A stretch of 64,000 bases of DNA from Bacteroidota bacterium. GTDB lineage: Bacteria; Bacteroidota; Bacteroidia; UBA8524. The first letter of the stretch is position 1. Every line of letters starts with the position of its first letter. A model generated the notes under the pieces. It ran no database searches and was not told where the DNA came from. It saw nothing but the letters and a program-made list of their open reading frames with translations. Position numbers and translations under genes: made by a program. Location: the NCBI GenBank assembly GCA_008933805.1, contig WBUH01000001.1:1-64000 (forward strand). The letters run 5' to 3'. Positions 9,057 through 59,092 of the stretch are shown here, one piece after another.

Positions 9057-12000
9057 TTATTTAATGCCCAGCAGGTATTCAATTTCAATTACTGCTTGGT
9101 TGTAATTATTCAAAGCCTGTAAATGGTTTTGTTTTATCTCAATAGCTGCCGATAGGCTTTGCAGGTATTCTACATAACCTATTTCACCGCTTTTCCATGC
9201 TTTTTGGGCTTGCTCCATAATAAGCTGCGCATTGGGCAAAGCAGTGTTTGTGTAGTAATCCAACGAGGTTTTGCTTTTAGTAAACTCCAAAACAGCTTGT
9301 TTATACCCTGTGTTTAGTTCAAGTTCAGCCTGTTTGTATTGTGTTTGACTGATAAGCTGTTGCGTTTCAGCAGCCCTTACTTTAGCTGTTTGCGGGGCAA
9401 ACCACAAGGGAATGCTTATTCCCACCTGCATACCGGTGAACCGCTTTTCGCTACCATAGAATACCGAGTTTCCGCCAATGGTTTGCGTACCGATAAGCGT
9501 TTGGCTAAAGTAGCCGATGGTAATATCGGGTAGTAACAATGCCCCCTCTACTTGTTTTTGTTTATATGCAATTACTTGTTGCTGTTGCCACCATTGCAGC
9601 AAAGGGTTTTTGTGCAATTGGTTGCTATCGGCAAGGGTACTGCCTGTTTTTGCTTCAAACGAAACCGCAGGAAATTGCAGACTATCAGGGGTGTTTAGCA
9701 ACAGTTGTAAATACGTGTATTTGCTGTTTAGCAGTGCACGGTGTTGTTGCAGTGCATCGGTGGCAAGTCCTTGTCGGGCAAGGGCGGTGGTTTTTTCAAG
9801 CAAGTTGGTTTCTCCGGCTGCATAACGTGCTGAAGCCGTTTGGACAAACCCTTTGTACAAGCTGTCTTGTTCAACCAAAAGCTTTTCATTAGCCAGCAGG
9901 TACACTATTTCATGCCACGTTTGTTTTACAGCTTTTACAAGGCTGTTTTCGTTGGCTGATAATTGCAATTGGCTGCTTTTTACCGTTTCGGTAGCTAATT
10001 GTGCCCGCTTGCCCAATACCGTAGGGAAGGGCAGTGTTTGGCTAATTGTAATGTTATTATCGGTTTGGATACTGTTATACTGCCCTAACATTACGTTGAT
10101 GTTAGTTTTCCCAATATCAGAGCTTGTTTTTTTGAGCAGCTGCCGATGAGTAACTTCTTGCTTTGATGCCTGTATGCCATAATTGTTTTGCAGGGCAGTG
10201 TTAATGGCCGTTTCAAGCGTAAGCGGAGTTTGGGCTGCGCCTGTAAATGGAATCAAAGCCAATGCAAGACAAGTTATTGCGGGGGTAACTGGAAGTTTTT
10301 TAGTGAATGAGGATTTAGTAAAGAGGCTGTATAGCACAGGCAGGACTAACAAGGTTAATAAGGTAGCAGTAATAAGCCCGCCTATTACTACGGTGGCAAG
10401 TGGTTTTTGTACTTCTGCACCCGATGAGTTTGAAAGTGCCATGGGTAAAAAGCCTAAAGAAGCCACTAAAGCAGTCATAATAACGGGGCGCAAGCGTACG
10501 GCGGTACCCTTTAATATAATGCGGTTGAGTTGGGTATATCCTTCTTTTTTCAGTCGGTTAAACTCTCCAATCAACACGATACCGTTTAATACGGCTACCC
10601 CAAACAGTGCGATAAACCCTACACCTGCCGAGATACTAAAGGGCATATCGCGCAGCCACAATGCCAAAACACCGCCAATAGCCGAAAAGGGAATGGCTGT
10701 GAATATAAGCAGGCTTTGCCCGATGGAGTGAAAGGTGAAATACAGCAGTACGAAGATGAGTAGTAAAGCTACGGGAACAGCAATGGCAAGGCGGTTGCGT
10801 GCCTCTTCAAAGTTTTTAAAAGTACCGCCGTAGGTGGCATAATAACCCGGTGAGAATTTTACTTGGGTTTCCATTTTTGCTTTCACTTCTTCTACAATGC
10901 TTTGTACATCCCGTCCGCGCACGTTAAAGCCAATCACAATACGGCGTTTGGCATCGTCGCGTTGTATTTGGTTGGGGCCGCTCACAAAATCAATGTCTGC
11001 AATCTGTTCAAGGGGTACGTTTTGCCCGTTGGGGGCAGGAACATATAATCCTTTCAAATCTTCAATATTTTGCCGATTGTTTTTGTCCAGTCTCACCACC
11101 ATATCAAAACGGCGTTCGCCTTCAAAAACCTGCCCGGCGGCTTCTCCCGCAAAACCTACCCGTAAGGCACGGTTTACGGTTTCAATATCAAGGCCGTAGC
11201 GTGCCAGTGCTTCGCGGTCTATATTCACCACCATTTGCTGCAAGCCGGTAGCTTTCTCCACATAAATGTCTTGCGCACCTTGCACTTGTGCTACCAGTTT
11301 TCCTGTTTTTTCAGCATACTCAGTAAGTTTATCAAGGTCTTCGCCGTAAATTTTAATTACTACGTCTTGCCTTGCTCCGGTCATTAGCTCGTTAAACCGC
11401 ATTTGTATGGGTTGCAAAAACCCGAAACTCACCCCGGGGATGGCCTCCAGTTCCTTTGCCATTTTTTCAGCCAGTTCATCACGGGTTTCCGCACTCGTCC
11501 ATTCGTCGCGGTCTTTCAGCACTACAATCATGTCGCAAGCTTCAATGGGCATGGGGTCGGTAGGTATTTCCGACGAACCAATTTTCCCTATCACTTCTTT
11601 TACTTCGGGAAACTTCGCTTTTAGTATGCCTGCGGCTTTTTGGCTTATTTCGATAGTGTGGCTTAACGATGAACCTGTAAGTACCCTTGTTTCTACTGAA
11701 AAATCGCCTTCGTCTAGCGAGGGGATAAACTCGCCGCCCATGTTTATAAACAGTATTAGTGCTCCTGCAAGGGCAACGACGGAGCTGGTGATAACCAGTG
11801 CTTTTCTTTTAAGGGCAAACTTGATGGCAGGACTGTATAAGCGTTGGAAAAAGTCCATCAGTTTATCAGAAAAGGTACGTTTGTTGGATACGTTTTTGCT
11901 GAGAAATAGTGCCGAAATCATCGGAACATAGGTAAGAGAGAGAATGAACGCTCCTAAAATGGCAAACGATACCGTTTGTGCCATAGGGCCGAACATTTTC

Positions 12001-13412
12001 CCCTCTATACCTACCAAGGCAAGTATGGGCAGGTACACAATCAAGATGATGATTTCTCCGAAGGCGGCGGCATTCCGTATTTTTTTGGCTGAATGATACA
12101 CCTCATCGTCCATTTCGGCTTGGGTGAGTTTGCGTTGCAGGTTTCTTACCCCCAAATGGTGCATGGTGGCTTCTACAATAATTACAGCTCCGTCCACAAT
12201 CAACCCAAAGTCGATAGCACCTAAGCTCATCAAATTACCCGATACGCCGAACAACTGCATCATCCCCACGGCAAACAACATAGCTAAGGGTATTACTGAT
12301 GCTACAATTAATCCTGCACGCAGGTTGCCCAACAGCAATACCAGCACAAAAATTACTATCAAAGCACCTTCAGCAAGGTTTTTAGTTACGGTACCTATGG
12401 CGTTATCTACCAGTTTCGTACGGTCGAGGTAGGCAACAATTTTTAATCCGTCGGGTAGTGTTTTTTCAATTTGGGCGATGCGTTCTTTTACCCTGTCAAT
12501 CACTTTTGATGAGTTGGCACCTTTCAGCATTAATACTACTGCTCCAACCGCTTCTCCTTCATCGTTTCGGGTAAGTGCGCCGTATCGTACTGCGTGCCCC
12601 ATTTGCACATTGGCTACATTTCGTATCAATATAGGCTGGCCGCCGGGGGTGTTTTTAATAACCACTTTTTCAATATCGGCCATTGTGCCTACCAAACCTT
12701 CACTGCGTATAAACCAAGCGTTTGGGTTTTTATCAATATATGCCCCGCCAGTATTTTGGTTGTTACGCTCCAATGCTGCAAACACTTCGTCTATGGTAAT
12801 ATTGGCACTCCTCAACTTATCAGGGTCAATAGCAATTTCGTATTGCTTCAATAGCCCGCCGAAACTGCTTACATCGGCCACACCTTCAACTCCTAACAAT
12901 TGGCGGCGTACCACCCAGTCTTGTATGGTGCGCAGTTCTGTTGCATCGTATTTATCCTCAAACCCTTTTTGGGGTTGTATCGTGTATTGGAATATCTCGC
13001 CTAAGCCTGTAGTTACCGGTGCCATTTCAGGTATTCCTGCGGCGGCAGGTATTTGTTGACGGGCTAATGTGAGGCGTTGGTTTATTTGTTCCCGCGCCCA
13101 GTAAATATCTATATCATCGTTAAAAACAACAGTAACTACCGAAAGGCCGAAACGAGAAAAGGAACGCATTTCTTCAATGCCGGGTATGGTGGCCATCGTT
13201 TGTTCGATAGGGAAGGTTACCAGCCTTTCAATATCTTGTGCTGCCAATGAGGGCGACGAGGTAATAATTTGTGCCTGATTGTTGGTGATGTCTGGCACGG
13301 CATCAATGGGCAGGTTCATCAGCGAAACTGTACCCCAAGCTATTAACCCCAACATCAGCAGGGCAATAACCAACTTGTTTTTTATGGAATATGCAATAAT
13401 CCTGTCAATCAT
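9057..13412 (-). CDS. CusA/CzcA-type heavy-metal RND pump fused to a TolC-family channel
   Basis: A 1451-aa fusion. About the first 1040 residues are a heavy-metal RND pump: an N-terminal membrane helix, periplasmic porter loops, the TM4 motif GAIDFGLIVDGAVI with acidic proton-relay residues, and a second helix bundle. The pump ends near LPVLYSLFTKSSFTKK. A hydrophobic segment (TPAITCLALALIPFTGAAQT) follows, which looks like an internal signal peptide, and then a TolC/CusC-type outer-membrane factor beginning LTLETAINTALQNNYGI, with two long coiled-coil repeats to the C-terminus. Pump and channel are normally separate genes of about 1040 and 400 codons. The adaptor gene follows and a small exported protein gene precedes. 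Confidence 0.92.
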   Translation of the reverse strand: MIDRIIAYSIKNKLVIALLMLGLIAWGTVSLMNLPIDAVPDITNNQAQIITSSPSLAAQDIERLVTFPIEQTMATIPGIEEMRSFSRFGLSVVTVVFNDDIDIYWAREQINQRLTLARQQIPAAAGIPEMAPVTTGLGEIFQYTIQPQKGFEDKYDATELRTIQDWVVRRQLLGVEGVADVSSFGGLLKQYEIAIDPDKLRSANITIDEVFAALERNNQNTGGAYIDKNPNAWFIRSEGLVGTMADIEKVVIKNTPGGQPILIRNVANVQMGHAVRYGALTRNDEGEAVGAVVLMLKGANSSKVIDRVKERIAQIEKTLPDGLKIVAYLDRTKLVDNAIGTVTKNLAEGALIVIFVLVLLLGNLRAGLIVASVIPLAMLFAVGMMQLFGVSGNLMSLGAIDFGLIVDGAVIIVEATMHHLGVRNLQRKLTQAEMDDEVYHSAKKIRNAAAFGEIIILIVYLPILALVGIEGKMFGPMAQTVSFAILGAFILSLTYVPMISALFLSKNVSNKRTFSDKLMDFFQRLYSPAIKFALKRKALVITSSVVALAGALILFINMGGEFIPSLDEGDFSVETRVLTGSSLSHTIEISQKAAGILKAKFPEVKEVIGKIGSSEIPTDPMPIEACDMIVVLKDRDEWTSAETRDELAEKMAKELEAIPGVSFGFLQPIQMRFNELMTGARQDVVIKIYGEDLDKLTEYAEKTGKLVAQVQGAQDIYVEKATGLQQMVVNIDREALARYGLDIETVNRALRVGFAGEAAGQVFEGERRFDMVVRLDKNNRQNIEDLKGLYVPAPNGQNVPLEQIADIDFVSGPNQIQRDDAKRRIVIGFNVRGRDVQSIVEEVKAKMETQVKFSPGYYATYGGTFKNFEEARNRLAIAVPVALLLIFVLLYFTFHSIGQSLLIFTAIPFSAIGGVLALWLRDMPFSISAGVGFIALFGVAVLNGIVLIGEFNRLKKEGYTQLNRIILKGTAVRLRPVIMTALVASLGFLPMALSNSSGAEVQKPLATVVIGGLITATLLTLLVLPVLYSLFTKSSFTKKLPVTPAITCLALALIPFTGAAQTPLTLETAINTALQNNYGIQASKQEVTHRQLLKKTSSDIGKTNINVMLGQYNSIQTDNNITISQTLPFPTVLGKRAQLATETVKSSQLQLSANENSLVKAVKQTWHEIVYLLANEKLLVEQDSLYKGFVQTASARYAAGETNLLEKTTALARQGLATDALQQHRALLNSKYTYLQLLLNTPDSLQFPAVSFEAKTGSTLADSNQLHKNPLLQWWQQQQVIAYKQKQVEGALLLPDITIGYFSQTLIGTQTIGGNSVFYGSEKRFTGMQVGISIPLWFAPQTAKVRAAETQQLISQTQYKQAELELNTGYKQAVLEFTKSKTSLDYYTNTALPNAQLIMEQAQKAWKSGEIGYVEYLQSLSAAIEIKQNHLQALNNYNQAVIEIEYLLGIK

Positions 13413-22574: not shown

Positions 22575-23135
22575 ATGGCTAGGTTTAAAAGGAATAATAG
22601 TCAATTTTCAATGAAAATATCTGACGAAGAATTAAATAAATTTTTTGAAAATTTTGATGTCAAACTCCAAAAATGTTTTGATGAAATTGAAGAATTGGCT
22701 TTAGTTGGAAACCGTATAAGAGATAAAATTATACCGTTTAAGGAGTCTAGCTTTGATATAGGAAGCCTTTACATTCCTTATTCAGCACTAAGAATCTTTT
22801 ATTTAAGAAGGCAAGCAAATGAATATGACCGGGGTATTGAATTGTCAGTCCATTTTCAATATAACTCATTCAGTAATGAAGAAAATAAGGCCTATTTTAC
22901 CAAATATACTAGTGATAAGCTATACTTATGGATTGATATATACCCCTGTCGGGATAATGATTTTACTAATTTTGAATGGGAACTTGGGGAGGGTGAGATA
23001 AAAACAATAGAATTCCCAAACCAACTAAATGGGGAGTTGGTAGAAGAAATCTGTCTTTATCTCTCTTTAAAGGCAAATATCATTGCTAAAACGCTTAATG
23101 ATATTGTTCTTGAAGATGAAAGCAGGGTGAATTAA
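22575..23135 (+). CDS. Hypothetical protein, partner of preceding gene
   Basis: A 186-aa protein, AT-rich, rich in charged and aromatic residues. The N-terminal third (about residues 15-65) is predicted helical, with FFENFDVKLQKCFDEIEEL. No catalytic motif, signal peptide or membrane span is visible. It starts 2 bp after the previous stop and runs convergent to uvrA. Family and function unknown. Confidence 0.6.
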   Translation: MARFKRNNSQFSMKISDEELNKFFENFDVKLQKCFDEIEELALVGNRIRDKIIPFKESSFDIGSLYIPYSALRIFYLRRQANEYDRGIELSVHFQYNSFSNEENKAYFTKYTSDKLYLWIDIYPCRDNDFTNFEWELGEGEIKTIEFPNQLNGELVEEICLYLSLKANIIAKTLNDIVLEDESRVN

Positions 23136-23162: not shown

Positions 23163-26003
23163 CTAAAGCTCCTCCTTCAAAAATAAGCCTGTAAAGCTTT
23201 CTTTTACTTTTACTATTTGTTCGGGAGTTCCGGTGGCTACAATTTGTCCGCCACGGTGCCCGCCTTCGGGGCCAAGGTCAATAATGTGGTCGGCAACCTT
23301 TATTACATCCAAATTGTGTTCAATCACCAACACGGTATTGCCGCGCTCTACTAATTTGTTTAGCACATCAAGCAAGATGCGCACGTCTTCAAAATGGAGC
23401 CCTGTAGTCGGTTCATCTAAAATGTAGAAGGTATTGCCCGTGTCTTTTTTGCTAAGTTCGGTAGCCAGTTTCACGCGCTGCGCTTCACCGCCGCTAAGGG
23501 TGGTGCTGCTTTGTCCAAGGGTAACGTAGCCCAAGCCCACATCCTTCATGGTTTGTATTTTACGAAGAATGAAGGGAACACCTTCAAAAAACTCGCAGGC
23601 TTGCTCAATGCTCATGTCCAGCACATCGCTGATGGATTTACCACGGTAGCGCACTTCCAATGTCTCGCGGTTGTAGCGTCGGCCGTTGCATTCTTCGCAC
23701 TGCACGTACACATCGGGAAGGAAGTTCATTTCAATCAAACGCATACCGCCGCCTTTGCAGGTTTCGCACCTGCCGCCTTTTACGTTAAAGCTGAACCGAC
23801 CGGGTTTATAGCCGCGTATTTTGGCTTCGGGCAGTTGGGTAAACAGGTTGCGTATGTCTTGAAAAACGCCTACGTACGTTGCAGGGTTGCTACGCGGGGT
23901 ACGCCCGATGGGGCTTTGGTCTATCTCAATCACCTTATCCAAATGCTCCAAGCCTTTAATGCTTTTGTAGGGCAATGGTTTTTGGTGCGAGCCGTAAAAA
24001 TGTTGTTTTAATATGGGGTAAAGGGTTTCGGTAATCAGGCTGGATTTTCCGCCGCCCGAAACGCCCGTTACGCAAATAAATGTACCGAGGGGGAAATCAA
24101 CGTCAATACCTTTCAGGTTGTTGCCTGTAGCACCTTTAAGCACCAGTTTATTACCGTTGCCTTTGCTGCGGGTTTTAGGGACTTCAATCGACCGCTCACC
24201 GCTGATGTATTGGGCGGTAACGCTGTTTTGCTTTTTAAACTCTTCGTAAGTGCCTTGTGCCACAATTTTGCCGCCGTGTATGCCCGCACCGGGACCTACG
24301 TCTAACACGTAATCAGCGTTGATAATCATGTCTTTATCATGCTCCACTACAATCACGCTGTTGCCAATATCGCGCAGGTTTTTCAGCGAGTTGATGAGCT
24401 TTACGTTGTCGCGTTGGTGCAAACCGATACTCGGTTCATCTAAAATGTATAATACGCCGGTTAATTGCGAGCCTATCTGCGTGGCCAAGCGGATGCGTTG
24501 GGCTTCGCCACCGCTGAGTATTTTGCTGGGACTGTTTAGGGTGAGGTAATCCAAACCCACGTCCAGCAAAAAGTCGATGCGGCTGCGTATTTCCTTTAAA
24601 ATTTCGGTAGCAATAATGTTTTGGCGGTCGGTAAGGCGGGTTTCAATCCCGTTAAACCATTCTTTCAGTCCGCCGATGTTTAGCATGGCCAGCTCTGAAA
24701 TGTTTTTCCCGTCGAGAATAAAGTGTAATGATTCTTTACGCAGCCTTGCTCCGTTGCAGGCAGGGCAGGTGCTTTCGGTCATAAACTCCTCAGCCCAGCG
24801 GTACAGCGCATCGTACGATTTTTCTTGATAATGACGGCTAAGCATGGGGATAATGCCTTCAAACGTGCTTTGGTACGTTTGTTTTGCTCCACTGCTAAAC
24901 TCGTAAGGCACATCAAACTTTTCGTCGCTACCGTGCAGGATTATATTCAGGGCTTCTTGCGGTATTTTGTTGATGGAATCGGCAAGGCTGAATTTGTATT
25001 TTTTGGCTACTGCACGCAGTTGTTGAAACGTCCAGTTCTCCTTCAATTCGCCCAAGGGGGCTATGCCGCCGCGGTTGATGCTGACGGTAGGGTCGGGGAT
25101 GATGAAGTTAATATCTACTTCGGTGATGGAGCCTAAGCCCTCGCAGGTGGGGCAGTATCCGTAGGGGCTGTTGAACGAGAAACTGTTGGGTTGCGGCTCG
25201 TCGTACGAGATGCCCGATGCAGGATCCATCAGGTATTTGCTAAAGTGGTAGTATTTTTCGTTCTCCACGTCAAACACCAGCACCAACCCTTTGCCGGCCT
25301 TCATGCCCGCTTGTAAACTTTGCGAGATGCGGAACGCCGATTTATCGTCGGGTTCAAGGCGGTCTATCACCACCTCAATGTCGTGTATTTTGTAGCGGTC
25401 AAGCTGCATTTTGGCGGCAATCTCCATAATCTCGCCGTCAACACGCACCTTGGTATAACCTTGCTTGCGCAGTTGCTCAAACAACTCGCGGTAATGCCCT
25501 TTTCTTCCCTTTACTATGGGAGCCAGCAACAGTATTTTTTGTCCGCGAAACTGCTCCAGTATGCGGTCTTTTATTTGGTCTTCGCTAAAGCGCACCATTT
25601 TCTCTCCCGTTTCGTAGCTATAGGCTTCGGCTACGCGGGCATACAACAGGCGCAAAAAGTCGTAAATTTCGGTAATAGTACCCACCGTACTGCGCGGGTT
25701 GCGGCTTACGGTTTTTTGCTCAATGGAGATAACGGGGCTAAGGCCGTTAATCTTGTCCACGTCGGGGCGTTCCATATCGCCGATGAACTGGCGGGCATAC
25801 GCGCTAAAACTCTCCATGTAGCGGCGTTGTCCTTCGGCATAAATGGTATCAAAGGCCAGCGACGATTTGCCGCTGCCACTAAGGCCGGTAACCACCACCA
25901 ACTGGTTGCGGGGTATGGTAACGTCTATATTCTTAAGGTTGTGCTCGCGGGCGCCTATCACCTCCAGCACACCTTCTTCTACAATGGGGTTTGCGGTGCT
26001 CAT
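23163..26003 (-). CDS. uvrA: Excinuclease ABC subunit A
   Basis: A 946-aa DNA-damage sensor of nucleotide excision repair. Two ABC ATPase modules are present: Walker [15 protein letters not shown] near the N-terminus and [14 protein letters not shown] in the second half, each with a signature ([14 protein letters not shown] and [14 protein letters not shown]). Zinc-finger cysteines appear in [18 protein letters not shown] and CETCKGGG...CEEC. The start is set at ATG 26003 ([11 protein letters not shown]), which matches the family; an upstream in-frame ATG at 26030 would add nine unconserved residues. The AT-rich methylase gene ends 43 bp upstream, leaving little room for a private promoter. 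Confidence 0.97.
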
Positions 26004-26046
26004 TTTAAATGAAACCGCAAAGGTAGGCAAAGTGTTTGAGGGTTGA

Positions 26047-26967
26047 TTATATTGAGCAAAAAGCTTTCAAGAACTCTTTTTGCTTGATTGGCGTAAATAT
26101 ATATTTTGAATTATTGATGAATTTTTCTGGCATCACACAGTTTCTACTACAAAAAATAACTTCTTCTCCAATTTTGACTTTAGAAGCGAAGTAATTCATT
26201 GCTAAAAATTCCAGCCTTTGGTCATCGTATAAATTTTTGATAAATTGGCTATCATCATATGACAAAACCCATTTATAATTATTTTGATTTTTAATGAACT
26301 TCGCCAAGTTTTTATGATGCTCGTCGGAATATGCTAAACGATATAAGTCATTACCTTTTTTATAATAAGGAGGATCTAAGTAAATTAAAATTTTACTATT
26401 TTCTAAGGGTAGGTGAGCAAAATAATTTTCAAGAAATGAAATGGAATCTAAGTTGTATACTTCAATTTTATTTTTGTTAAGTCCAATCAGCTTTATTCGC
26501 TCAATAAGATCACTTTTATTGAATCGGGCATCCAATTTCCAATTTCCTGTTTGATTTTTTCCACCTATTGGGCCAGCTGTTAGAATCCCTGATCGATTGC
26601 ACCTATTCAAAAAAAAGCAAGTGAACCCTTTTTCAATTGTTGAAAGTTCCTTTGGAATGCTGAGATTATATTTTAATCTATTATAAGTGTCAATTGTGAT
26701 TTTAGTATCATGAATTAAAGAGATTAATTCATCAGTATTCTTACAAGCAGACAGCCAAAATGAACTGACAAATTCATCAAGATCGTTTAAAACAATTTTA
26801 TCAACGATGTTACTAAAAAGTAATTTAAGTGCCGCGCCTGAACCCCCTGCATATGCCTCAACATAGGTCCCACCTTGTAATTCATTTGATCTTATGATTT
26901 CCGCTAGAAAGGTCGATAACTTTGCTTTTCCTCCCGGGTATCGTAATGGGCTATAAAAGGTGCTCAT
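26047..26967 (-). CDS. D12-class DNA adenine N6-methyltransferase (Dam-like)
   Basis: A 306-aa DNA methyltransferase. The N-terminal SAM-binding motif region is PLRYPGGKAKLSTFL (about 7-21) and YVEAYAGGSGAALKLL (about 35-50). The catalytic motif IV is DPPY in LIYLDPPYYKKGNDLY (near residue 197). This is the D12 (alpha) order seen in Dam and phage enzymes, methylating adenine; the recognition site cannot be read from sequence. The ATG overlaps the stop of the ParB-like gene by 4 bp (translational coupling). No restriction endonuclease is adjacent. The pair is clearly more AT-rich than uvrA, suggesting horizontal gain. Confidence 0.92.
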   Translation of the reverse strand: MSTFYSPLRYPGGKAKLSTFLAEIIRSNELQGGTYVEAYAGGSGAALKLLFSNIVDKIVLNDLDEFVSSFWLSACKNTDELISLIHDTKITIDTYNRLKYNLSIPKELSTIEKGFTCFFLNRCNRSGILTAGPIGGKNQTGNWKLDARFNKSDLIERIKLIGLNKNKIEVYNLDSISFLENYFAHLPLENSKILIYLDPPYYKKGNDLYRLAYSDEHHKNLAKFIKNQNNYKWVLSYDDSQFIKNLYDDQRLEFLAMNYFASKVKIGEEVIFCSRNCVMPEKFINNSKYIFTPIKQKEFLKAFCSI

Positions 26968-28679
26968 TGAATAATTTTTAATAAATACGGATGAAAGTTG
27001 TTGTATATATGTTTTAAATCATCAAAACTCGGCAAGCTTGCGTGGTTGTGAACAAACTCGTTTAAATCTTGGAAAAAACGCTGGTTACCACTTTTGGCCA
27101 TAAAACTTTTGACATTATCAGAGATGTGTTGATCATTTATCAAATTTTTATCACATACACGCTTTAACATTGCACTCAAATTCGGCCAAGTTTTTTTATC
27201 AAGCGTTCTTACATTTAAATCTAAATCGGTTTCATTAATGGTCACCCCCATGGATATTAGGCTGTTATATAGAGCTTTTCTTTTGTTTTGTGCCTCTAAT
27301 GTGAATGTTGATTTTAGTTCTGTACTCCATATTTTAATCTCATTGTTTTTTTGCAAAAAAACAAATGTAGGAATTTCAATCAAAGTACGTAATAGTAAAG
27401 CCGCCCCTATCACATGTTTTTTAGCATCTAAAGTTTTAAGCTCTTCGATAATTAGTTGTGTCTTTTTATGTAAGATACAATTTATTGGGTCATCGTCTTC
27501 GATTATATAGTTAGTAACAGGTTTCTTCTTTTTAGTATTAGCTTTTTTATCCTCTGTACTTGATGTAGTTAGGTTTTGGGTATCATTATTTACTAGTGGG
27601 GAATTTTGATTGTCATTATCGTTTGTGTTAAAGGTATCGCTTGAATTGTCTCGGCCACTTGTATTGTTGCTGCTTGAATCACCATTATCATTAGTGACAT
27701 TATTGTCAACTTGGGAAGGATTATTTTTTGCTTCACTTTCTACGGGTAGCCAAAACTCCTCTTGTGGTATGTCAATCAATGCTCTTTTTTGAATTGGAGA
27801 ATTAATAGATAGTTTAAATTTTGGAAATACCTTTTCGTACCATTCTTCAAGATTTCGAGAGTCAGCATCTTTATTAGTAATATCTTCGATAAGCTTGGCA
27901 AAAGTTAGCGCAAATTCGTTTGGAGCTATCTTTAAATATAAATCACCATTTACGTCTCTTTCAAGTCCATATAACAAGAGCCTTTCTTTGACTATTGTGT
28001 ACCGATGAAGATTTGTAATTGAGAAGCCTTGCTTTCCTCCAGTTTTTTTAATTTTTTCTGCGAAATCAAGTGGCCAATTCTTTACTTTTAGTGCAGTAAT
28101 ATATAATTGGTCAATAGAGATGGCATCTTTAAATTTACTTTTACTTATGTTATACTTTTTCTGAATATCAGTCATTGAGAGTCCTGTTTTTTTCATGAAT
28201 TTTATTGAAAAAACAGCTTGTTCTAAAGGAGTCCAACCTTTCTTTGTGTCCTGAATATGTTTATCTAATATTGCGGGCTCCGCTTCCTCTCTTGAAGGGG
28301 CTATAACAATTTCTAGTTGTTCGATTGGTTTTTTGTTTCCGATTTCTTTGGATGTTCGTCTTACGTTATCAATAATTTTTCCAGGAGCACAATTAGGGTC
28401 AAGTAATACACGTACGGCAGCAAGTCTTCTATTTCCTTCGATAATATAAACTTTTTTTTCTTTTTTATCAAAGTACCCAATCGGCTGTTCGTAAGGTATA
28501 AAACCTATTGCCTTTATTTGTTCAACTAAAGTCAAAACGTCATACTCTTCACATAATTGAGTAAGTATTTCATCTTGACTTTTATCCTGTTTATCTTCAG
28601 GAAATCTTGGGTTAAAAGGGTCGAAGTATAAATCAAAGGGGTTGTATAGTTTTTTCGGCCAACCTGAGTAATCAATCAT
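26964..28679 (-). CDS. ParB/Srx-domain protein with C-terminal helical domain
   Basis: A 571-aa protein. Residues about 10-130 resemble the ParB/sulfiredoxin N-terminal domain, with KVYIIEGNRRLAAVRVLLD in place of the usual DGxRR box. A ParB-like helix-turn-helix follows near 150-200 (LSMTDIQKKYNISKSKFKDA). A long Asn/Asp/Ser/Thr-rich linker spans about 315-375 and ends in a Lys-rich run. The last 180 residues are helical, with ALLLRTLIEIPTF and FQDLNEFVHNHA, which recall HEPN or Abi-type C-terminal domains; that is a pattern guess. It is translationally coupled to the Dam-like methylase. A role in self-protection or phage defence is inference. Confidence 0.8.
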   Translation of the reverse strand: MIDYSGWPKKLYNPFDLYFDPFNPRFPEDKQDKSQDEILTQLCEEYDVLTLVEQIKAIGFIPYEQPIGYFDKKEKKVYIIEGNRRLAAVRVLLDPNCAPGKIIDNVRRTSKEIGNKKPIEQLEIVIAPSREEAEPAILDKHIQDTKKGWTPLEQAVFSIKFMKKTGLSMTDIQKKYNISKSKFKDAISIDQLYITALKVKNWPLDFAEKIKKTGGKQGFSITNLHRYTIVKERLLLYGLERDVNGDLYLKIAPNEFALTFAKLIEDITNKDADSRNLEEWYEKVFPKFKLSINSPIQKRALIDIPQEEFWLPVESEAKNNPSQVDNNVTNDNGDSSSNNTSGRDNSSDTFNTNDNDNQNSPLVNNDTQNLTTSSTEDKKANTKKKKPVTNYIIEDDDPINCILHKKTQLIIEELKTLDAKKHVIGAALLLRTLIEIPTFVFLQKNNEIKIWSTELKSTFTLEAQNKRKALYNSLISMGVTINETDLDLNVRTLDKKTWPNLSAMLKRVCDKNLINDQHISDNVKSFMAKSGNQRFFQDLNEFVHNHASLPSFDDLKHIYNNFHPYLLKIIQ

Positions 28680-57456: not shown

Positions 57457-57951
57457 TTATCGTTGTTTATAGATATGGTCAAACGCTTTTTGTAGAGCAA
57501 CAAAACAAGAACAATTTTTTTGTTTTAAGTCGTTCAGAAGAGTTTTAAATTCAGGTTTGGTATCTATTCCGTATGTTTTTAATCCTTTCATAAACTTTTT
57601 TCGGTCAGTACTAAATCTGTATTTTGAAAGGTCAACAGACACTTCAGCAGCATTTGTGTGAATAAAACCATCTACCTGTGGTGATAATGTTATGAGGAAT
57701 AAATTTCCTAATTGTTTTAAAACTACCCCGTCTATATTAGAAACTTCGGTAAAGGTTTCAAAAAATTTTTGTTTTCTTTTATCATTATCTACAACGCCAA
57801 TAAATATACCTTTTAGCTTTTTATCATAAGCTCTTTGTAAACTGGCAGATACTTGATATACATCAATAGCATTTTCAACACTGTAAGCATCTTTTGAAAA
57901 TAAACGGCACAGGCCATAAGTAGCACCGTCTTCAGTAAAAAACTTGTGCAT
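57457..57951 (-). CDS. TOPRIM-like protein paired with AAA ATPase
   Basis: A 164-aa protein starting MHKFFTEDGATYG. The glutamate near the N-terminus (E7 in FFTEDGATYG) and the DxD pair in IGVVDNDKRK (D55, D57) are spaced like the metal ligands of TOPRIM-type nuclease domains (DUF3226/DUF4276-like). A later acidic motif is less clear. Its ATG begins 1 bp after the ATPase stop. By analogy to OLD, Gabija or PARIS pairs, it could be the nuclease effector released by the ATPase; that is inference. ATG 57951 was chosen because the frame upstream overlaps the ATPase coding sequence. Confidence 0.7.
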   Translation of the reverse strand: MHKFFTEDGATYGLCRLFSKDAYSVENAIDVYQVSASLQRAYDKKLKGIFIGVVDNDKRKQKFFETFTEVSNIDGVVLKQLGNLFLITLSPQVDGFIHTNAAEVSVDLSKYRFSTDRKKFMKGLKTYGIDTKPEFKTLLNDLKQKNCSCFVALQKAFDHIYKQR

Positions 57952-57952
57952 T

Positions 57953-59092
57953 TTATTTCTCTTGCAAGTGATTAATAAAACGGTCGATATTAAAGAAAAT
58001 ATCAGTTTTCCATTCTTGGACTTTCGCCAATTCCTCAGCACTTAAAATCTTAATTTTAGTTTGATAGTCTTCGTAATACGTCAACACCACATTTAATTCT
58101 TCATCATCCAAACTGTCAATTAAGGTATTCAGCATATACGGGCTGTGTGTAGAAATAAAGTATTGGTTTTCGTCGTTCAGTACAATCCTGTCGGCCAGCA
58201 TTTTAATATACGGTGGGTAAGAGTGTACCTCCGGTTCTTCAAATAACAATACTGAATCTTTGTTAGTTTCAATGGCAGCTAAATAAAAAATAATATGGCG
58301 CAAGGTATCTGCAATGTTCGAGTACGGAACCTGATACACAATCCTATCTATTTTCTTTTGAATGATAAACTTGTTTTCTTTTTTATCTAAAACAAATTCA
58401 AGACCTTGTTCTTCAATAAAACCACCAAATTCATTTAAAAGTTCTTTATTGTAATTTAATATGGTAAATAAATTTTCACCATACGGAGGGTATAAAAAAT
58501 CTCTAAAAGTATCATAATAGTTATCATAATGCTTGTAGGTGTATGTTCTTATGGGGTTGCTAACTTCAATGTTGTTGGGGAAATGTAAAGGTATCGCGTT
58601 ATTTGAACGACCAGTTTTGTCAAATTCTACTAGCGAAGGGCGCAAATAATGTTTTTGAGGCGGTGAAAATGGTTCTAAATTTCCTCTAAGTTCATAGAAT
58701 GCATTTCTTGGAAAATATGTTAGTTTACGATCATTATATACAGAGGCGATTTTTGATTCCCATTCTTTGTCAATAGAGGTGTATATGAATAAGTGGTTGT
58801 AATATTCAATTGTTACTCTTGATAGCTCTGTTGATATTTTGATTTCATTATCTGTATCTTCGTCGTAAAAGAGATTAAATAAGTCCCTAAAACGTATAAT
58901 ACCTTTTTGGGCGAGTTCAAAATTACCACTTTGCATATTTAGGGTAGAAGTCATCAACCCCATCCCCTCCAAAATATTCGATTTTCCCACGTTCGGTTTG
59001 CCAATAAACACGTTCACCCGTTTGGGATTAAACTTTATATGCTTTATAGACTTAAAGTTTTTAATTTCAAGTTCTTTAATGTTATTTTCCAT
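57953..59092 (-). CDS. AAA ATPase of OLD/RecF-like type
   Basis: A 379-aa ABC-class/AAA_21-like ATPase. It opens ELEIKNFKSIKHIKFNPK with Walker A GKPNVGKSN (31-39), a central coiled and divergent region (about 60-250), and a C-terminal Walker B LLFEEPEVHSYPPYI followed by the histidine switch ISTHSPYML. This layout is shared by OLD-family and anti-phage ATPases. The adjacent TOPRIM-like gene starts 1 bp on. The pair sits between a glycosyltransferase and comEC in the same direction. AT-rich compared with comEC. Confidence 0.85.
   Translation of the reverse strand: MENNIKELEIKNFKSIKHIKFNPKRVNVFIGKPNVGKSNILEGMGLMTSTLNMQSGNFELAQKGIIRFRDLFNLFYDEDTDNEIKISTELSRVTIEYYNHLFIYTSIDKEWESKIASVYNDRKLTYFPRNAFYELRGNLEPFSPPQKHYLRPSLVEFDKTGRSNNAIPLHFPNNIEVSNPIRTYTYKHYDNYYDTFRDFLYPPYGENLFTILNYNKELLNEFGGFIEEQGLEFVLDKKENKFIIQKKIDRIVYQVPYSNIADTLRHIIFYLAAIETNKDSVLLFEEPEVHSYPPYIKMLADRIVLNDENQYFISTHSPYMLNTLIDSLDDEELNVVLTYYEDYQTKIKILSAEELAKVQEWKTDIFFNIDRFINHLQEK

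Follow-up and report, generated by a model that had tools for sequence, protein, structure and literature searches.

The 64-kb window (the whole stretch of DNA analysed here) carries upstream of uvrA two overlapping genes, A and B, which, judged by their sequences, constitute a divergent new member of the already described PD-lambda-5 family, an anti-phage system found by functional selection and for which protection against phages was established by experiment (Vassallo et al. 2022; PMC9519451). We consider it likely that this pair was acquired horizontally beside uvrA, that B marks the DNA of its own cell and that A is a ParB-type switch which fires its HEPN-like end on DNA lacking the mark. 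An anonymous gene pair can now be addressed as a named defence system, and PD-lambda-5 gains a testable anatomy consisting of an NTP switch, a DNA-binding region, a linker, a HEPN-like end and a self-marking methylase. The genes concerned are as follows.

26964-28679, minus strand: gene A, predicted ParB-fold and HEPN-like protein of 571 aa, ATG start, PD-Lambda-5_A
26047-26967, minus strand: gene B, D12-class N6-adenine DNA methyltransferase of 306 aa, ATG start, PD-Lambda-5_B
26964-26967, minus strand: ATGA, 4 bp, with the stop of A within the start of B
23163-26003, minus strand: uvrA, a neighbour outside the system

Family assignment of the pair

Gene A matched 18 models of PADLOC-DB, all of them PD-Lambda-5_A (best 4.6e-37, followed by 7.5e-36) and with the best-matching stretches in its N-terminal half, and the best match of B in the same database was PD-Lambda-5_B (2.6e-106, residues 1-285 of 306). 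PD-lambda-5 calls for two adjacent genes, and here the two overlap by 4 bp. The two family-model E-values, together with a gene order that recurs in unrelated genomes, place the assignment beyond chance, and the link to PD-lambda-5 runs via the PADLOC models and a homologue in an E. coli P2-like prophage rather than via the validated E. coli proteins. This prophage pair has the same architecture and matches both models over the full length (5.3e-168 for the A model and 7.9e-122 for the B model). The window pair likewise has A followed by B, each matching the models of the family, with NxR, GNRR, W149, R431 and H544 conserved in A and a DPPY methylase in common. It differs in that A is longer (571 aa, whereas the E. 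coli relative has 501 aa) and has an Asn/Ser-rich linker, in that the genes overlap whereas those of the E. coli relative are separated by a 69-bp gap, and in that it is chromosomal, beside uvrA, whereas the relative is prophage-borne. Identity is also low, window A being 14-27% identical to its 43 homologues in the alignment used below (A3) and window B at most 47% identical to its relatives. The word ParB is absent from the main text of PMC9519451, figure labels aside, and literature searches covering the main text of freely accessible papers brought up no study of the mechanism of PD-lambda-5.

The initial annotation had described an AT-rich pair of ORFs at 26047-28679, overlapping by 4 bp, lying upstream of uvrA and lacking a restriction nuclease, and this description holds throughout. 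Both ORFs are present at these coordinates on the minus strand, 43 bp separate B from the probable ATG of uvrA, and the GC content of the pair (0.323) is the lowest among 2633-bp stretches sampled at 250-bp steps across the window (mean 0.412, s.d. 0.025). Searches of A and B with Pfam, PADLOC and NCBI models revealed no restriction nuclease domain in either, and no adjoining nuclease gene was seen. A type II restriction-modification (R-M) system was rejected for want of a cognate restriction endonuclease, A having no nuclease-family match and none being seen adjoining the methylase. The genome (4.29 Mb in 40 contigs) has one copy each of A and B.

Predicted anatomy of the two proteins

28245-28655, minus strand: A residues 9-145, ParB/Srx-type NTP-binding domain, limits inferred from AlphaFold, Foldseek and profile comparison with the genomic ParB
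28425-28439, minus strand: A residues 81-85, the EGNRR box, in which GNRR is invariant in 44/44 homologues
27810-28244, minus strand: A residues 146-290, putative ParB-like helical DNA-binding region, from the model and Foldseek
27498-27803, minus strand: A residues 293-394, Asn/Ser-rich linker, pLDDT mostly below 50 in the AlphaFold model
26967-27497, minus strand: A residues 395-571, HEPN-like helical domain, containing R431 and H544
26836-26853, minus strand: B residues 39-44, YAGGSG, which we take to be the SAM-binding motif
26365-26376, minus strand: B residues 198-201, DPPY, presumably the catalytic motif, invariant in 17/17 sequences

The AlphaFold model of A, built with 44 sequences (mean pLDDT 78, pTM 0.55), shows an alpha/beta domain at the N-terminus, followed by a helical region and, beyond a disordered linker, by a helical domain at the C-terminus. 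When the full model was compared with the PDB by Foldseek, the first 28 rows were ParB, Spo0J, Noc and KorB (best E 1.6e-4), and the rows list Q52A and E93A mutant structures. Profile comparison by hhalign with canonical ParB of the same genome and its relatives (E 5.6e-5, probability 66) pairs NPR of A with QPR of ParB, and EGNRR with GERR. In alignment A3, which consists of window A and 43 of the 46 full-length A genes, G82, N83, R84 and R85 are invariant in 44/44 sequences, and N23 and R25 are found in at least 90%. That the N-terminal part of A has a ParB-CTPase fold with the box II arginine is therefore a well supported prediction of the model, and the earlier description of a ParB-like protein with an EGNRR box, an HTH and a disordered linker corresponds to residues 81-85, the ParB-type helical DNA-binding region and the low-confidence stretch at about 293-394. 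None of the 44 homologues matched a ParB or HEPN family of Pfam, and sequence searches of the PDB with the A alignments returned nothing meaningful.

With the CTP switches ParB, Noc and KorB, A shares the predicted fold over residues ~1-290 and an alignable box I and box II (genomic ParB), whereas its C-terminus is different, Pfam ParB_N does not match it, and both the Gln of QPR and the Glu of GERR are Asn in A (N23 and N83). This Gln and this Glu matter for hydrolysis in ParB-type switches, and A, with Asn at both positions, may be a slow or non-hydrolysing NTP switch. Since ParB-fold relatives bind CTP, ATP or GTP, with the box II arginine being needed (as described in PMC12704722), the nucleotide bound by A is not predictable.

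The ParB fold of A would also suit a partition or gene-regulation protein accompanied by an orphan methylase, with no role in defence. We regard this as very improbable, as the genome encodes its canonical ParB, with a standard GERR box, in another gene, none of the neighbouring genes was recognised as ParA, the family models that A and B match describe a defence system, and both the C-terminal domain and the replacement of A by OLD-like proteins at other loci (see below) fit defence.

The C-terminal domain, modelled alone, reached a mean pLDDT of 85.8. Its ten best structural rows have Z values of 6.0-7.8 and include several HEPN toxins, MntA-HepT among them, a C-terminal portion of Csm6', and 1wwp and 2q00/2jpu, which we take to be HEPN-like. 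HEPN-named chains score Z 6.0-7.2 vs. 5.6 for the best unrelated row, in a range of middling values to which helical bundles are prone, and Foldseek gave no match with E below 0.001, HEPN-fold structures having E above 1. The resemblance is suggestive of a HEPN-like domain, although the Z values may reflect only a common helical-bundle arrangement. R431 and H544 are invariant in 44/44 homologues and E435 occurs in at least 90%, but the Rx4-6H motif of HEPN RNases is found in 3/44 and missing in 41/44, window A included, so that the domain may be called HEPN-like while canonical HEPN RNase chemistry is not supported by its sequence. The HEPN/Abi-like end put forward in the initial annotation is thus supported only as a helical domain and a lead towards a HEPN-like fold. 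The count of 44/44 holds for A3 only, from which L088 (C-terminus near-identical to that of L083), L114 (close to L089/L106) and L123 were left out. The C-terminus of L123 has no RxxxE and no clear LNxxVHN motif, and L038, in alignment A1, has Trp where others have R431.

Gene B encodes a D12-class adenine methylase (Pfam 8.4e-20) whose best sequence match in the PDB is the adenine-specific methylase 7m6b (2.2e-11), and its YAGG and DPPY motifs are kept in its relatives. It had been called a Dam-type methylase; the class is confirmed, but the Dam identity is rejected by model TIGR00571 (50 bits against a cut-off of 114.85).

On these components the following model can be proposed. B would methylate adenine at its own site throughout the genome and so mark self. 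A, attached to DNA by its ParB-type NTP switch and its helical DNA-binding region, would act as a clamp under nucleotide control. Unmarked DNA would flip the state of the switch, and the switched A would release or activate the C-terminal HEPN-like domain, which would then bring the phage or the infected cell to a halt. We infer four elements of this model: that A recognises DNA, that B marks DNA in this host, what triggers A and what its effector acts on. If the model is true, ParB-type clamps, known from chromosome segregation, also sense DNA methylation in immunity.

The opposite polarity, in which A acts on methylated DNA, either because B tags incoming or replicating phage DNA for A or because A counts methylation as a replication signal, is suggested by the modification-dependent systems GmrSD and BrxU (DUF262 + DUF1524), where, as in A, a ParB/Srx-type NTPase is joined to an effector, and by Dazbog, in which DUF262 likely recognises methylated DNA (as described in PMC10952713). 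One A homologue also weakly matches GmrSD_N (0.0025). A differs from GmrSD and BrxU, however, in having no HNH domain according to Pfam and in having a dedicated methylase beside it, and a resident methylase would tag the host as well, which calls for a further means of discrimination, and no such feature was seen. We therefore think this reading unlikely and retain the one in which A responds to unmarked DNA.

Distribution of the pair and exchange of the methylase partner

A search of 395 genomes from the phylum gave 55 with a B-model match of 1e-30 or better, and a gap in the scores sets apart 19 of them, including the genome studied here, as having true B (E <=1.6e-84, the rest being 6.8e-69 or worse). 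The pair recurs in them: A lies directly 5' of B in 13 of the 18 other genomes (11 intact, 2 interrupted), and the remaining five show, one each, a short ParB 3' of B with a full A further on, an ATPase gene instead of A, no A, a broken B, and a contig edge. When the B alignment was used to scan 84,980 species genomes, 566 loci were confirmed, and in the best 80 of these, a sample biased to near relatives, a ParB-HEPN gene adjoins B in 48 (44 directly 5', 2 interrupted, 1 3' and 1 convergent). Distances between A proteins correlate with those between B proteins (Spearman 0.48 for each half of A against B, a value not reached in any of 2000 permutations; 44 pairs), and the pair is therefore for the most part inherited together. 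With window A as the query, a scan of 60 genomes (its own and 59 relatives) recovered its own copy only (1/60), and a scan of viral contigs gave 14 pattern matches, none of which was confirmed.

Carriage by prophages is common. True B (E 1e-60 or better) is present at 40 of the 80 loci retrieved from viral contigs. In 23 of these it is accompanied by ParB-HEPN (17 directly 5', 1 split and 5 convergent), in 14 by an ATPase partner (in one case at a distance of 342 bp) and in two by a short ParB, and one lies at an edge. The pair is found on viral or prophage contigs and on chromosomes alike. In Marinobacter phage AS1 it lies beside the integrase gene, and in the E. coli P2-like prophage it is flanked by the replication-endonuclease gene and the portal gene, so that the possibility, raised at the outset against a defence role, that it occurs mainly in prophage replication modules is not borne out by these two annotated examples. 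At one locus (L046) the pair is situated within a type I R-M operon. Family identity, recurrence as a pair, presence as temperate-phage cargo and this last copy uphold the original proposal of a defence module, as a prediction for the window copy.

Frequent prophage carriage, the R-M-like gene pair and the AT-rich islet would also be expected of a selfish addiction module, in which A is toxic unless B methylates the genome, cells losing the pair are killed, which maintains it, and defence is incidental. Loci with B but without A exist, however, several of them at contig edges, and the PD-lambda-5 family protects against phages (PMC9519451), which makes such a module an improbable explanation and leaves defence by self-marking as the preferred one.

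The same methylase also occurs with other partners. In 15 of the best 80 of the 566 loci (L097, L100, L101, L104, L108, L111, L119, L126, L128, L129, L136, L140, L146, L155 and L157) an OLD-like ATPase gene, encoding ~550-590 aa where complete, lies directly 5' of B; a regular expression retrieved 12 of these and an HMM all 15, counting the truncated L128 and L140 at a contig edge. An OLD-like partner with the methylase is also found at L245 and L247, and on E. coli chromosomes such a pair is located next to icd/intE as well as next to an integrase gene. Among 13 aligned partners G35, K41, S212, G214, D246, E247, H280, E347-D348 and D401-x-D403 are invariant; we take G35/K41 to be the Walker A motif, S212/G214 the signature, D246/E247 Walker B and H280 the switch His, and the layout, including the C-terminal E347-D348...D401-x-D403, presumably that of an OLD-like ATPase-TOPRIM protein. 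In 4 of the same 80 loci (L086, L089, L090 and L114) the OLD-like gene joins the ParB-HEPN pair, and in another 4 of the 80 a short ParB (367-386 aa) and then a protein of about 306-314 aa lie 3' of B, without full A. Loci of this short-ParB type, with a second protein of 302-330 aa overall, are L084, L131, L149, L150 and L047, and phage L163; in a P2-like phage the trio of methylase, short ParB and second protein is located beside the portal gene. The second protein had no PADLOC match in the two loci scanned (L047 and L163). At L092 and L145 a HerA-like ATPase gene (PADLOC HerA 4.9e-20 at L092, the one scanned) and then a gene for a ~460-aa protein follow the methylase, as a further type of partner.

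In a tree of 121 methylases, built without L170 (neighbour lengths the same as at L169) and L187, a minimum of 15 changes of partner label is required, compared with a mean of 36.2 for shuffled labels, none of the 200 shufflings being as low, and several changes are forced by well-supported branches. Partners are thus exchanged occasionally rather than freely. Window B belongs to a set of five rows, all with ParB-HEPN (96*).

The finding of the same methylase with an OLD-like partner in 15 loci, and of both partners in 4, among the best 80 of 566 supports an R-M-like logic in which B marks self and its partner senses and acts. Of all the observations, this exchange of partners speaks most strongly for B being a general self-marker and for A occupying the slot of the restriction partner. 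As a broader possibility, to which we give somewhat less than even credence, PD-lambda-5 may be one branch of a wider, undescribed defence class having one self-marking adenine methylase and an exchangeable partner, namely a ParB-HEPN-like clamp, an OLD-like ATPase-TOPRIM protein, both, or a short ParB with a ~305-aa protein. In the PD-lambda-5 branch the ParB clamp would read methylation and fire a motif-less HEPN-like domain, amounting to restriction without a restriction enzyme. The same searches of the main text of freely accessible papers found the methylase/OLD-like pairing nowhere described; the remaining novelty lies in this exchangeable-partner pattern and in the ParB-switch and motif-less HEPN-like anatomy. 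The PD-Lambda-5_B model scores an OLD-paired methylase as strongly as a true PD-Lambda-5_B, and annotation by the methylase model alone will label OLD-like systems PD-lambda-5.

The probable uvrA promoter element and other loci in the window

26018-26025, minus strand: TACCTTTG (TAnnTTTG), between B and uvrA, likely the uvrA -7 element

The -7 element of Bacteroidota has the consensus TAnnTTTG. The probable start codon of uvrA is the ATG whose last base is 26003, and TACCTTTG lies 14 nt ahead of it; in all four genomes of the same family that were examined, TACTTTTG is found 15-16 nt ahead of the uvrA ATG. The element in the window and its counterpart in the four genomes indicate that the -7 element of uvrA itself is downstream of the pair. 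Thus, as far as can be read from the sequence, uvrA likely retains a core promoter element of its own, with the pair situated upstream of it, and the initial idea that the pair was inserted between the promoter and uvrA is not supported. It may be that the -33 half is no longer the original one, and transcription may also continue from the pair into uvrA. Neither an empty site nor a target duplication nor flanking direct repeats marking an insertion of A and B were found; the four same-family uvrA regions share no synteny outside uvrA.

An AT-rich orphan gene for a 186-aa protein (22575-23135, plus strand, GC 0.31), which lies immediately beyond uvrA on its 3' side and is oriented towards it, has no Pfam or PADLOC match. 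A second AT-rich islet (57457-59092, minus strand, GC 0.31-0.33) encodes a 379-aa AAA_15/AAA_21 ATPase (Pfam 4.7e-19; best PADLOC match NsnB at 1.8e-19, then AriA at 8.8e-18), whose gene overlaps that of a 194-aa protein without PADLOC or Pfam match; it is possible that this islet is a second defence module. On the minus strand at 9057-13412, a single ORF of 1451 aa comprises a full RND pump (ACR_tran) together with an outer-membrane efflux (OEP) domain.
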